From positions 154,306-218,305 of the forward strand of contig JAJPHD010000001.1 of the NCBI GenBank assembly GCA_021325455.1: a stretch of 64,000 nucleotides of DNA, written 5' to 3'. Under the pieces are notes generated by a model, which was given only the letters and a program-made list of their open reading frames with translations, was not told where the DNA came from and made no database searches. The stretch's first letter is position 1, and each line of letters opens with the position of its first letter. Shown one piece after another: positions 19,038 to 47,790 of the stretch. Source of the DNA: Actinomycetota bacterium (lineage in GTDB: Bacteria > Actinomycetota > Acidimicrobiia > Acidimicrobiales > JAJPHD01). A program made the translations under genes and the position numbers.

Positions 19038-20282
19038 CTAGTCGCAGGCCACGAGGCGGCGGGCCGTGAGCCGGTGGTACAGCTCGAGGAGCCGGGCCGC
19101 GGCCTCCGACCAGCTGTAGCGCCGGGCCCGGGCCGCGGCCTGGCGGGACAGGGCCCGGGCCAGGCCGGGGTCGCTCAGGACCTGCACGGCCCGGGAGGCG
19201 AAGGCCACCGAGTCCCTCCCCTCGACCAGGTAGCCCGTCGCCCCGTCATCGACCAGGGAGAGGAGGCCCCCCACGGCCGAGGCCACGACCGGCACCCCGC
19301 AGGCGGCCGCCTCCAGGGCCACCAGGCCGAAAGACTCGGACCGGCTGGGGACCAGGCACAGGTCCATGGCCCGGTACCAGGTCGAAAGGAGCTCGTGGGG
19401 TTGGGGCTCGACGAAATGGACGGCCGTGCCCAGCCCCAGGCCACCGACCAGGGACCTCAACCGGCTGAGCTCGGCCTCCCCCTGTGGCCCGCTGGGGCCC
19501 CCGATCACCACCAGCTCGGCCGGCAGGCTCCTGCGGACGGCGGCCAGGGACCTCACCGCCACCTCGGCACCCTTCAGGGGTTGTATGCGCCCGACGAAGG
19601 CCAGCAGATGGCCTCCTTCGGCCAGACCCACCGCCCGGCGGGCCTGGGCCTTGTCACCGGGGGCGAAGAAGGCGTGGTCCACCCCGGGAGCGACCAGCTC
19701 GATGCGCTCGGGCTGGGCGCCGTAGAGCTGGACGAGCTGGTCGGCCTCGGCGGCGCAAGAGGCCAGCACGGCATCGGAGCAGGCGATGATCTCCGCCTCG
19801 GCCTCCGCCCTGCGGGCCGGCTCCGAGGCCACCACCTCCTCCATGCTGGCCTCGGCCTTCACCCGGTCCAGGGTGTGGAAGGTGGACACGAGAGGGACGC
19901 CCAGCTCGTGCTTGATGACATGGCCGGCCAGCCCCGAGAGCCAGTAGTTGGCATGGACCGCATCGGGCACGCAGCCCTCGCCGCCGGCCCCCATCCGGGC
20001 CAGCACCCCCGCTGTGAACTCCCCGGCCAGGTCGGCCATCGCTTCCTTGGGCACTGGCTCCAGAGGGCCGGCGGGGATGTGGTGCACCGCCAGCCCGGGC
20101 TCGACCATCACCGAGGGGGGCAGCTCCTCCGACCAGGCCCGCGTGTAGACGTCGCAGTGCACCCCCGCCCGGGCCAGGGCGGTGGACAGCTGGAGGACAT
20201 AGACGTTCATGCCGCCGCCGTCGCCCGTCCCGGGCTGGGCCAGCGGCGACGTATGGAAGGAGAGGACCGCCAGGCGCCGCAC
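19038..20282 (-). CDS. GT4 glycosyltransferase, MshA-like (D-inositol-3-phosphate glycosyltransferase)
   Basis: A 414-residue GT-B retaining glycosyltransferase. The N-terminus HTSPLAQPGTGDGGGMNVYV is nearly the MshA signature for binding inositol phosphate; the UDP-GlcNAc part has GRIQPLKGAE, the EX7E-type block SESFGLVALEAAACG and VVASAVGG. MshA starts mycothiol synthesis from UDP-GlcNAc and inositol-3-phosphate. No other msh gene is in the window, so a different acceptor cannot be excluded. The GTG at 20282 is preceded by TAGGGT with eight bases between and no ribosome-binding site, the leaderless pattern. Confidence 0.78.
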   Translation of the reverse strand: MRRLAVLSFHTSPLAQPGTGDGGGMNVYVLQLSTALARAGVHCDVYTRAWSEELPPSVMVEPGLAVHHIPAGPLEPVPKEAMADLAGEFTAGVLARMGAGGEGCVPDAVHANYWLSGLAGHVIKHELGVPLVSTFHTLDRVKAEASMEEVVASEPARRAEAEAEIIACSDAVLASCAAEADQLVQLYGAQPERIELVAPGVDHAFFAPGDKAQARRAVGLAEGGHLLAFVGRIQPLKGAEVAVRSLAAVRRSLPAELVVIGGPSGPQGEAELSRLRSLVGGLGLGTAVHFVEPQPHELLSTWYRAMDLCLVPSRSESFGLVALEAAACGVPVVASAVGGLLSLVDDGATGYLVEGRDSVAFASRAVQVLSDPGLARALSRQAAARARRYSWSEAAARLLELYHRLTARRLVACD

Positions 20283-20417: not shown

Positions 20418-20831
20418 TCAGCTCCGGCGGGCCCCCACCCTGGCTCGGCCTCCCGGGGCCACCCTTCCGGCTCTGGCCGGGGGTCCGTAGCGCCAGACCA
20501 CCTTCTGCCTTACCCGGTCCCTGGGCACCGGGCCGAAGGTCCGGCTGTCGGTGCTGGCCCCCGGGTTGTCCCCCTCCACCCACACCACCGGGCGACCGCC
20601 CGAGCCCGCCCCCGCCCATACCACCCTCTTGACCAGGTCCCGGTCCCCCACCCGGGGGTCGGCCACCACCACCAGGTCCCCGGCCCGCACCCGCCTGGTG
20701 CGGGCCACGAGGAGGCGGTCCCCGGGCAGGAGGGTGGGGGCCATGCTCTCTCCCACCACCTCCACCCGGTCCAGCCCCGCCCACCGGAGGACGGCGACCG
20801 CCCCTCCCACCAGCCCCACCGTGAACTTCAC
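20418..20831 (-). CDS. sodX: Nickel-type superoxide dismutase maturation protease
   Basis: A 137-residue S24/S26-type (signal peptidase-like) serine protease that cuts the NiSOD propeptide to expose the nickel-binding N-terminal histidine. The catalytic serine is in GESMAPTLLPGD (S29) and the lysine in DLVKRVVW (K68), followed by VEGDNPGASTDSR, the usual late motif. The N-terminus is only weakly hydrophobic. It is divergent from sodN, the expected partner. The GTG at 20831 has TACCCT seven bases upstream and no ribosome-binding site, so it is probably leaderless. The C-terminal 25 residues are Arg/Gly/Pro-rich. Confidence 0.9.
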   Translation of the reverse strand: MKFTVGLVGGAVAVLRWAGLDRVEVVGESMAPTLLPGDRLLVARTRRVRAGDLVVVADPRVGDRDLVKRVVWAGAGSGGRPVVWVEGDNPGASTDSRTFGPVPRDRVRQKVVWRYGPPARAGRVAPGGRARVGARRS

Positions 20832-20838
20832 GGACCGC

Positions 20839-20848
20839 AGGGTAGGGT
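20839..20848. promoter_or_regulatory. Overlapping back-to-back -10 boxes of sodX and sodN
   Basis: On the minus strand TACCCT (20844 down to 20839) lies seven bases before the sodX GTG. On the plus strand TAGGGT (20843-20848) lies ahead of a 26-base or so leader that carries AAGGAG (20869-20874) before the sodN ATG. The two hexamers share two bases, so the two promoters should compete for polymerase. No known nickel or iron regulator site is evident to me. Confidence 0.5.
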
Positions 20849-20880
20849 GAGTGGGTCAACCCGAGATCAAGGAGCACGGC

Positions 20881-21300
20881 ATGCGCATGTCGATACGCCT
20901 ACTGTCCCTCGTAGATCGGCTGAGCCCTCCCCGCCTCGCTCAGGCCCACTGCGACCTGCCCTGCGGGGTGTACGACCCGGCGCAGGCACGCATCGAGGCG
21001 GAGTCCGTGAAGGCCATCATGGAGAAGTTCCACAGCTCCGATGACAACGTCTTCAAGACCCGCGCCGTCCAGATAAAGGAGGAGCGGGCCGAGCTGGTGA
21101 AGCACCACCTCTGGGTGCTGTGGACCGACTACTTCAAGCCTGCCCACCTGGAGCGCTACCCCCAGCTGCACCAGCTGTTCTGGAAGGCAACCAAGGCCGC
21201 CGGCGAGTCCAAGCACAGCACGGACGTGGCCGTGGCCCAGGACCTCCTCGACCAGATCGCCGAGATCGACAAGATCTTCTGGGAGACCAAGCAGGGCTGA
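20881..21300 (+). CDS. sodN: Nickel superoxide dismutase
   Basis: A 139-residue precursor of the nickel-containing superoxide dismutase, which disproportionates superoxide in the cytoplasm as a hexamer. A 22-residue propeptide is followed by the nickel hook HCDLPCGVYDP, where His23, Cys24 and Cys28 of the precursor become His1, Cys2 and Cys6 after cleavage by SodX. The mature part is then 117 residues, the same as in Streptomyces NiSOD. The ATG at 20881 is chosen over an in-frame GTG at 20851 because AAGGAG stands six bases before it. Confidence 0.96.
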   Translation: MRMSIRLLSLVDRLSPPRLAQAHCDLPCGVYDPAQARIEAESVKAIMEKFHSSDDNVFKTRAVQIKEERAELVKHHLWVLWTDYFKPAHLERYPQLHQLFWKATKAAGESKHSTDVAVAQDLLDQIAEIDKIFWETKQG

Positions 21301-21598: not shown

Positions 21599-22447
21599 CT
21601 AGTCCCGGACCTCGGCCCGGCCGTGGGTGATGACCGTCCGGCCCCCACTTGACGCCTCGAAGGCATAGGCGTGGCCTCCGTCCACCCGCCCGGCGTCGTA
21701 GACGGTGGTCACCAGGTCGTTCCCGGGGAAGACGAAGCCGCCGAACCGCACCGCCAGCCGGGCCAGGCGGGCAGGGTCGTCGCCGGCTGCCAAGCGGATC
21801 ACTGCCTGGCCGCACATGGCCATGACGCAAAGCCCGTGGGCGATTATCCCGGGCAGGCCCACGCTCCTGGCGAAGTCCTCGTCCACGTGTATGGGCATCT
21901 GGTCCCCGGAGGCGTCGCGGTACCGGTAGGTCTGGTCCTCGTCCACGTGCACCGTGTGGGAGCCGACCGGAGAAGAGCGTGCCCCCTCGGGGAAGGTGTG
22001 GCTCGGCTTGTCGGGACCAGCGCTTCCCCCCCCGGTCATGCCCCTTATGAACAGCGTCACGTACTGGTCCAGGACCGCCTCGCCCCCTTCGGCGTCGGTG
22101 CTGCGCACCAGGATCGTGAATCGGGTCCCCGATGGCCCCACCCGCACGCTGTGGGCCTGGGCCCGCGTAGCCAGGGAGCGCCCGGGCACCAATGGCCGGT
22201 GGAAGTGCATGTCCTGCTCACCGTGCACCACCATCATCAGGGCCTCGGCGGGCACCACGTCCCCGGCGGCCAGGCCCATGGCCTCCCAGGTGGGCACCAC
22301 CCCGAAGAGGGGAGGGGCCAGCTTCCCCGACCGGTACGCCTCGTTGGGGTCGTTGGTGGCGTCGGCATAGGCCCTGGCCCGCTCGGGGTCGATCGGCTCC
22401 ACCCGCTCGGGGTAAACGGTCCCCAGCTTGTCCAAGGGCAGCGCCAC
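21599..22447 (-). CDS. MaoC-type double hot-dog dehydratase
   Basis: A 282-residue protein with two hot-dog halves. The C-terminal half has the hydratase-2 signature GDQMPIHVDEDFARSVGLPGIIAHGLC (in part), with Asp and His in the places of the catalytic pair; the N-terminal half (DPERARAYADATNDPNEAY, HGEQDMHFHRPL) is the usual decayed partner domain. It should hydrate trans-2-enoyl-CoA in fatty-acid or steroid breakdown. The GTG at 22447 has GGGAG five bases upstream; the frame start at 22888 is discarded because it overlaps the divergent metallopeptidase gene. Confidence 0.82.
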   Translation of the reverse strand: MALPLDKLGTVYPERVEPIDPERARAYADATNDPNEAYRSGKLAPPLFGVVPTWEAMGLAAGDVVPAEALMMVVHGEQDMHFHRPLVPGRSLATRAQAHSVRVGPSGTRFTILVRSTDAEGGEAVLDQYVTLFIRGMTGGGSAGPDKPSHTFPEGARSSPVGSHTVHVDEDQTYRYRDASGDQMPIHVDEDFARSVGLPGIIAHGLCVMAMCGQAVIRLAAGDDPARLARLAVRFGGFVFPGNDLVTTVYDAGRVDGGHAYAFEASSGGRTVITHGRAEVRD

Positions 22448-22504
22448 GCCTGCTCCCGCTCCTTTCTCCTCCGCCCCGGCCCGTCGACAGGCTAGCGTCG
22501 CGCC

Positions 22505-22987
22505 GTGGAGGTCGAGGTCGTCCGCAGCCCCCGCCGTCACCGCACCGTCCAGGCCCGCCGGGTCGGGGACGTCCTCAGGGTCAGCATCCCGGCCACCATG
22601 ACCAAGGCCGAGGAGCAACGGTGGGTGGCCGAGATGGTGGCGAGGGTGGAGCGAAGGATCCAGGCCAGCCGGATCGATCTCGGCACGCGAGCCCGGGAGC
22701 TGGCCCGGCGGCACCGCCTTCCCCTCCCGAGCACCATCCGCTGGGTGGACAACCAGCACTGCCGCTGGGGGTCGTGCACCCCCGCTGAGGGGACGGTGAG
22801 GATCTCCTCCCGCCTCACCTCGGTCCCCCCCTGGGTCCTGGACTATGTCATCGTCCACGAGCTGGCCCACCTGGTGACCCCGAGCCATGATCGGCGCTTC
22901 TGGTCCCTGGTGAACCGCTACCCCAGGGCCGAGCGTGCCCGTGGCTACCTCATGGCCATGGGGGCCGAGGCCGACCTAGACACCTGA
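22505..22987 (+). CDS. YgjP-like (DUF45) zinc metallopeptidase
   Basis: A 160-residue cytoplasmic protein with the zinc-protease motif HELAHL (residues 118-123) and the family block WGSCTPAEGTVRISSRL about 30 residues earlier, followed by SHDRRFWSLVNRY where the third ligand side is expected. The substrate of these proteins is unknown. The GTG at 22505 has TAGCGT six bases upstream and no ribosome-binding site, so it looks leaderless; it is divergent from the MaoC-type gene with only 57 bases between them. Confidence 0.83.
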   Translation: MEVEVVRSPRRHRTVQARRVGDVLRVSIPATMTKAEEQRWVAEMVARVERRIQASRIDLGTRARELARRHRLPLPSTIRWVDNQHCRWGSCTPAEGTVRISSRLTSVPPWVLDYVIVHELAHLVTPSHDRRFWSLVNRYPRAERARGYLMAMGAEADLDT

Positions 22988-46909: not shown

Positions 46910-47503
46910 TCAGCCGACGGCCAGCGGCGCCGAGGAGAGGAAGGAGCGGAGGATCCGCCGGCCGACGGAGGTGAGGACCGACTCGGGATGGAACTGGACG
47001 CCCTCGACCGGGTGCTGGCGGTGGCGCAGTCCCATCACCAGTCCGTCGGCGGTCCAGGCCGTCACCTCCAGATCGGGCGGGACCGAGCTCTCCTCCACCA
47101 CGAGGGAGTGGTACCGGGTGGCCTCGAACGGGCTCTCCAGGCCCGCCAGCACCCCCTGGCCTCGATGGTGGATGGGGGAGGTCTTCCCGTGGACGATCTG
47201 GGGTGACCTCACCACCCTGGCCCCGTAGGCCTGGCCCACGCACTGGTGCCCCAGGCACACGCCGAGGACGGGCACCCGGGGGCCCAGCTCGGCAACGATG
47301 GCCATGCTGATGCCTGCGTCCTCGGGCCGCCCCGGGCCCGGCGAGACCACGATGGCATCGGGCCGGAGGGCGGCAGCGCCGGCCACGGAGATGGCGTCGT
47401 TGCGGTGGACCATCACCTCTGCCCCCATCTCCCCCAGGTCCTGCACCAGGTTCCAGGTGAACGAGTCGTAGTTGTCGACGACGAGGACCCGGGGGGCGGC
47501 CAC
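46910..47503 (-). CDS. Class I glutamine amidotransferase, PabA/TrpG type
   Basis: A 197-residue glutaminase subunit that supplies ammonia to an aminodeoxychorismate or anthranilate synthase. Seen: VVDNYDSFTWNLVQ, VSPGPGRPEDAG, nucleophile in VLGVCLGHQ, and the His-Glu pair in VEGVQFHPESVLT. The synteny with crgA and pknB equals that of the gene called trpG in Mycobacterium, whose product probably serves folate synthesis as PabA. GTG at 47503 with TAGCGT six bases upstream (leaderless). It is divergent from crgA with 35 bases between and converges on pknB. Confidence 0.92.
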   Translation of the reverse strand: MAAPRVLVVDNYDSFTWNLVQDLGEMGAEVMVHRNDAISVAGAAALRPDAIVVSPGPGRPEDAGISMAIVAELGPRVPVLGVCLGHQCVGQAYGARVVRSPQIVHGKTSPIHHRGQGVLAGLESPFEATRYHSLVVEESSVPPDLEVTAWTADGLVMGLRHRQHPVEGVQFHPESVLTSVGRRILRSFLSSAPLAVG

Positions 47504-47509
47504 CCTGTC

Positions 47510-47529
47510 ACGCTAGCCCCCGGTATCGT
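47510..47529. promoter_or_regulatory. Divergent leaderless promoters of pabA and crgA
   Basis: On the minus strand TAGCGT (47515 down to 47510) is six bases before the pabA GTG. On the plus strand TATCGT (47524-47529) is nine bases before the crgA ATG. Each -35 region must lie inside the other gene's leader or start. Confidence 0.5.
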
Positions 47530-47538
47530 GTCGGGGAC

Positions 47539-47790
47539 ATGGCCAGGCGGAGGACCAAGGCCAAGCCGGCCCCGGTGCAGAGCGGCCGCTACACCCCGCC
47601 CATCCCCCGCCGGCGCCGCTCGAGCCCGGCGTGGATGGGCGTCCTGCTCCTGGTCCTCCTGGTCCTCGGTGTGCTGGCCATCATCCTCAACTACCTGAAG
47701 GTGCTGCCCGGAGGAGCCACGGACTGGTACCTGCTGCTAGGGCTGGTCCTGATCTGCGCCGGCTTCGGCGTGGCCACTCAATACCGATGA
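47539..47790 (+). CDS. crgA: Cell-division protein CrgA
   Basis: An 83-residue divisome protein that binds FtsZ, FtsQ, FtsI and other PBPs and coordinates septum growth in actinobacteria. It has a basic cytoplasmic N-terminus with the conserved RYTPPIPRRRR, SPAWMGVLLL opening the first helix (about 32-52), the periplasmic loop NYLKVLPGG, and a second helix (WYLLLGLVLICAGFGVAT in part). ATG at 47539. The pairing with pabA and pknB is conserved near the origin of many actinobacteria. Confidence 0.93.
   Translation: MARRRTKAKPAPVQSGRYTPPIPRRRRSSPAWMGVLLLVLLVLGVLAIILNYLKVLPGGATDWYLLLGLVLICAGFGVATQYR

Follow-up and report, generated by a model that had tools for sequence, protein, structure and literature searches.

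The window (the whole stretch of 64,000 nucleotides analyzed here) belongs to a genome of 2.95 Mb in 28 contigs. It carries the genes for nickel superoxide dismutase (sodN) and its maturation protease (sodX) back to back, on either side of a short gap in which two -10-like boxes on opposite strands have two bases in common. The features of the locus are as follows.

20418..20831, minus strand: sodX, nickel-SOD maturation protease (S26 family), start codon GTG 20831; Pfam PF10502, E 9.2e-18
20881..21300, plus strand: sodN, nickel superoxide dismutase, start codon ATG 20881; Pfam PF09055, E 5e-47, 160.1 bits
20832-20880: gap between sodX and sodN, 49 nt
20844..20839, minus strand: TACCCT, probable sodX -10 box, 7 nt from GTG 20831 (leaderless geometry, matching the genome-wide peak at 6-9 nt)
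20843-20848, plus strand: TAGGGT, probable sodN -10 box, 32 nt from ATG 20881, with GGG in front (GRG lead-in)
20843-20844, both strands: TA, the bases common to TACCCT and TAGGGT
20869-20874, plus strand: AAGGAG, sodN ribosome-binding site, 6 nt upstream of ATG 20881
20832, minus strand: predicted sodX transcription start, placed by box geometry (nearest purine 20831, the G of GTG)
20855..20880, plus strand: predicted sodN leader, 26 nt, its start site placed from the box

SodN passes the family models, scoring 165.5 bits against TIGR02753 (cut-off 90), and carries the sequence HCDLPCGVY, which we take to be the nickel-SOD hook motif. Its top matches in named genomes, among the matches listed, came mostly from metagenome genomes, acidimicrobial or otherwise actinobacterial, and from Acidiferrimicrobium, at no more than 79% identity, and on this basis we regard the source as an acidimicrobial actinobacterium. 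SodX scored 61.8 bits against TIGR02754 (sod_Ni_protease), slightly below the cut-off of 63.25, and its gene adjoins sodN. A search of plasmid records gave no matches for SodX and only two records for SodN. The simple gene caller that we used placed the start of sodN at GTG 20851. We ruled this start out in favor of ATG 20881, because the latter has a ribosome-binding site and leaves 22 residues before HCDLPC, as is the case in many relatives. Beyond the end of sodX, on the same strand, lies a glycosyltransferase gene (19038-20282, minus strand) whose best NCBIfam model is MshA (mycothiol), at 413.7 bits against a cut-off of 462.5; this MshA-like gene has a leaderless-type TAGGGT box of its own.

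The original prediction held that TACCCT and TAGGGT share two bases on opposite strands within the gap, that sodN has a ribosome-binding site and a leader, and that sodX looks leaderless. Letters and distances agree with the first statement, and AAGGAG agrees with the second, the leader itself being predicted from the box. The third is borne out by a TANNNT box 7 nt before the GTG, by the many such starts elsewhere in the genome, and by a scan for ribosome-site words, which found none upstream of GTG 20831 or of two inner GTG codons at 20819 and 20810. The first T's of the two boxes are offset by +1, and the -10 elements share bases in one of the registers known from bidirectional promoters. 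The transcription starts predicted from box geometry, at about 20831-20832 for sodX and about 20855 for sodN, would lie 23-24 bp apart. Neither box has a convincing -35 element (the best match is 3/6 for sodN and 2/6 for sodX), and the sodX box has no purine lead-in. Both TANNNT boxes are probably real; the sodX mRNA looks leaderless and the sodN mRNA looks leadered. A perfect palindrome of 15 bases at 20819-20833, spanning the sodX start codon, was considered as an operator candidate and treated as chance, since 14 such repeats (arms of 7 with 1 base between) occur in the 64-kb window and, by eye, none like it was seen in the upstream regions of relatives that were inspected.

An independent check on the sodX box is the frequency of such boxes before other starts in the same genome. 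A passage of PMC3160421 gives the leaderless signature in Actinobacteria as TANNNT about 12 nt before the start; sodX has the first T of its box at about this distance and no ribosome-site word. Our own-genome set consisted of 20 stretches and the window, 417,210 bases after one overlap was removed (an overlap of 305 bases remains). Genes were called with a simple codon model, by the same caller that misplaced the sodN start, and we counted the 227 starts preceded by 30 free bases. TANNNT is rare in this set (0.00063 per base per strand). Nevertheless, it stands 6-9 nt before 48 of the 227 starts, or 12 per position, while the flanking positions 0-5 and 12-29 (24 positions, with 10-11 left out) hold 12 boxes, or 0.5 per position, so that the enrichment at 6-9 nt is about 24-fold. 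Leaderless genes are thus routine in this genome, and sodX, with its box at 7 nt, fits among them. Because the caller had put sodN at GTG 20851, sodX is not one of the 48, and it therefore serves as an outside test of the signature.

The 48 leaderless-type starts resemble sodX in several details: GTG is the start codon in 24 of them, and the box reads TACCCT in three. Across their promoters we found no -35 signal, the mean best match to TTGACA being 2.52 of 6 bases as against 2.45 in shuffled sequence. Promoters of M. tuberculosis are described in parts of PMC3898074 as having an SRN lead-in at the -10 box and no -35 signal; the SRN lead-in is missing from 20 of our 48 boxes. As far as the relevant parts of PMC3160421 and PMC3898074 describe them, the leaderless genes of those studies are like sodX in combining TANNNT, 6-9 nt from the start codon, with the lack of a -35 signal and of a ribosome site. 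They are unlike it in that the TA of the sodX box is shared by a partner promoter on the opposite strand. Closely juxtaposed divergent promoters as such are already called a common feature of M. tuberculosis in a passage of PMC3898074.

How much the shared bases mean depends on how easily they come about. Given one box, a TA-sharing box on the opposite strand requires only an A four bases upstream. This A accompanies 42 of the 270 intergenic TANNNT boxes (15.6%, where a single shared site may be counted from both strands), and A makes up 14.4% of intergenic DNA. Boxes before starts are more frequent than chance would give, but their sharing is not: TA sharing is ordinary in this genome, at about the base-composition rate once boxes exist. 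Among the 36 divergent gaps of up to 300 nt, boxes are found on both strands in 29 and a TA-sharing pair in eight, namely the sodX/sodN gap, positions 22489-22498 of the window, and six gaps elsewhere. The second pair in the window lies between called genes at 21599-22447 (minus strand) and 22505-22987 (plus strand, with a leaderless-type box at 6 nt). The window also contains, at 47503-47539, back-to-back genes with a 35-nt gap whose leaderless-type boxes, TAGCGT and TATCGT, do not overlap.

We compared the gap with those of related genomes. In the class, sodN was present in 222 of the 395 genomes searched. One sample comprised 70 loci (the window's own, 29 other best matches, and 40 chosen from the same order) and another comprised 80 named loci among the matches listed. 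Nine of the 70, in which the hook motif was not found, were dropped, followed by 16 of the remaining 141 (nine with AT-rich upstream sequence, five duplicates, and two without a start), which left 125 loci. With the orientation of sodX rechecked by its serine motif, the pair is divergent in 118 of these; sodX lies downstream on the same strand in five and was not found in two. Of the 125 loci, 109 have a TANNNT box whose first T lies 31-95 nt before the sodN start, and 99 have exactly one such box. The bases before these 99 single boxes are strongly biased (75 have G at -3, 93 a purine at -2, and 64 G at -1), and this GRG lead-in resembles the M. tuberculosis SRN as described in part of PMC3898074. 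Given its presence in 109 loci and the strong GRG-TA context in 99, the plus-strand box, judged by its conservation, is a sodN promoter of long standing that relatives have kept.

The opposite box shows another pattern. In the 99 loci with a single sodN box, the base that would create it is A in 10, T in 40, G in 25, and C in 24, while A accounts for 18.8% of the bases in the same regions; the TA overlap is not generally kept, and A is if anything rarer than expected. Since 89 of the 99 loci have no TA-sharing opposite box, comparative support for the sodX box comes from a few loci. Comparison of the gap in related genomes, which the original prediction had proposed, thus upholds the divergent pair but not the overlap. 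We also considered the GRG before TA as a trace of an opposite -10 box, and ruled this out because the last base needed for such a box is the A found in those 10 loci, with T four times as frequent.

The 10 loci with the A differ in what follows it. In the window and in Thermoactinospora rubra (L131), a sodX start stands at leaderless position after the shared box; in L131, TACTCT lies 6 nt before the sodX GTG and shares its TA with TAAGGT, which is the layout of the window. In L137, L144, and L163, sodX starts further from the shared box and has a ribosome-site word, and on both counts it appears leadered. In L162 the only leaderless position lies before a TTG, far upstream of where sodX usually starts; L104 has the A but no sodX was found there; and in the last three, L110, L141, and L159, sodX begins too far from the box for the two to be clearly linked.

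We consider it probable that the sodX/sodN gap holds a compact bidirectional promoter, with starts in the 23-bp class and one leaderless arm, that of sodX, and that the two genes are transcribed nearly independently at ordinary activity, with no need for selection on their ratio. Both boxes would be read by the housekeeping sigma factor, for the most part with no -35 element. Transcription of sodN would begin at about 20855 and produce the 26-nt leader, and that of sodX would begin at about 20831-20832 and produce a leaderless mRNA. An A four bases upstream of the T of the sodN box probably gave rise to the sodX box in this lineage. From the shared element we predict that bidirectional transcription should occur, with momentary steric exclusion: one polymerase at a time would occupy the site, sodX and sodN would be transcribed nearly independently at ordinary activity, and only strong induction of sodN would reduce sodX.

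This reading draws on the bidirectional promoters studied by Warman, Grainger and colleagues, which are defined by divergent start sites 7-25 bp apart (PMC10268837). According to passages of PMC12825309, the commonest start spacing is 18 bp, spacings of 10 and 23 bp are frequent too, and two opposing polymerases cannot be bound simultaneously. Five such promoters in E. coli are described there as too weak at basal activity for much competition, so that one direction was nearly unaffected when the other was lost, and activating one direction tends to lower the other. The claim that sodX and sodN cannot fire at once would accordingly apply to one template at one moment, but in E. coli such exclusion has little effect at basal activity. 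As far as these sources describe them (PMC12825309 in part, PMC10268837), the sodX/sodN gap is like the known cases in its pseudo-symmetrical -10 elements, which lie on opposite strands and share bases, and in its predicted spacing of 23 bp, a common one by the passages of PMC12825309. The E. coli examples often lie between divergent, functionally linked genes, and sodX and sodN are likewise divergent. The gap differs from them in having TANNNT rather than TATAAT, in belonging to a GC-rich actinobacterium, in that one transcript is predicted to be leaderless, and in that its starts are predicted rather than mapped.

In Streptomyces, too, sodN and sodX flank an intergenic region, which a passage of PMC3919588 reports to be highly conserved among streptomycetes. 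The 5' end of sodN is mapped there, with part of the ribosome site within the first 18 nt, and the ribosome site near the sodN 5' end is a further likeness to the window. The same passages describe a difference, in that Streptomyces sodN is under post-transcriptional control by the s-SodF RNA. We searched the literature on sodX with sodN, on their divergent promoters, and on bidirectional and leaderless transcription in actinobacteria, and judging by titles and opening abstract lines no paper described the overlap. Among the matches listed by a search on mapped starts in Acidimicrobia-named organisms, none named the group.

Three other explanations of the two boxes were weighed. It is unlikely that only the sodN box is used, with TACCCT arising incidentally from the G-rich AGGGTAGGGT repeat and sodX transcribed from a different promoter, perhaps within sodN. 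The repeated AGGGT AGGGT does yield TACCCT for free, and the sodN box is conserved where the opposite box is not. However, TACCCT sits in the 6-9 nt range of leaderless starts, where TANNNT is 24-fold more frequent than in the flanks, and a chance box at these four positions would be expected at only about 0.9% of starts from the flanking rate, or about 0.25% from the whole-genome rate. We find it quite unlikely that the sodX box is used but that translation begins, after a short leader, at one of the inner GTG codons. Both codons are in frame, 4 and 7 codons inside GTG 20831, and the length of SodX before its catalytic serine varies among relatives; against this, neither has a ribosome-site word before it, and the leaderless spacing belongs to GTG 20831. 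Finally, it is most improbable that, as originally proposed, the overlap persists because mutually exclusive promoters would fix the ratio of protease to substrate: the pair does consist of an enzyme and its processing protease, is divergent in nearly all of the 125 loci, and recurs in L131 with the same shared-TA leaderless layout, but the A of the opposite box falls short of its share of the same regions, and sharing within the genome is at chance.

A catalytic protease, moreover, requires no fixed ratio to its substrate. A dosage feature would be expected to be kept, yet the base of the opposite box is not kept while the gene pair is, and ratio control is for this reason unsupported. The behavior of the E. 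coli promoters, with little competition at basal activity and a tendency for activation of one direction to lower the other (passages of PMC12825309), points the same way. Because sodX would fall, strong induction of sodN would shift the ratio of protease to substrate, not hold it.

On the preferred reading of a compact bidirectional promoter, the gap between sodX and sodN offers a clean, readable, and probable example with a leaderless arm, in a GC-rich actinobacterial lineage, and overlaps of this kind arise at about the base-composition rate. It also carries a caution. Shared promoter bases are no proof of regulatory design without comparison; here relatives retain the gene pair but for the most part not the overlap.

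A second arrangement of the two promoters appeared among loci whose sodX and sodN boxes do not overlap. In 13 of the 88 loci examined (L032, L041, L042, L045, L050, L051, L055, L057, L061, L116, L149, L152, and L153) the first T's are exactly 16 bases apart; nine of these loci are of one genus (f5, g12) and four are named. Three further loci (L037, L039, and L062) likewise have 16 bases, and the spacing is 15 in L048 and 13 in L028. On the sodN strand, the sodX box of the first 13 reads ACGCTA, ACGATA, or ACGTTA, and the sodN box of the 16-base loci is mostly TAACCT, at 48 to 68 from the sodN start in the 13. The sodX box is 6-8 nt before a start in 12 of the 13, and likewise in the other, L050. 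The 15 intervening bases are variable, save for TGAC or a similar sequence right before the sodN box. A simple reading of these sequences would place the sodX box inside the sodN core promoter, with a fixed internal spacing. The loci are related (L055 and L116 are almost identical, for example) and for this reason are not independent.

We offer as a highly doubtful suggestion that the interior of the sodN core promoter has repeatedly been the source of the sodX -10 box, along two routes or more: TA sharing, which would be leaderless in the window and L131 and leadered in L137, L144, and L163, and a leaderless box at 16 bases in one genus of Acidimicrobiia and close loci. If such arrangements were selected, induction of the nickel SOD would automatically lower the protease, or both genes would be tied to one polymerase-binding site. 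In one further relative, L011, the sodN leader contains a GGAGCTCC palindrome that reads as a ribosome-site word on either strand, one available to sodN and the other to a possible sodX ATG within that leader.
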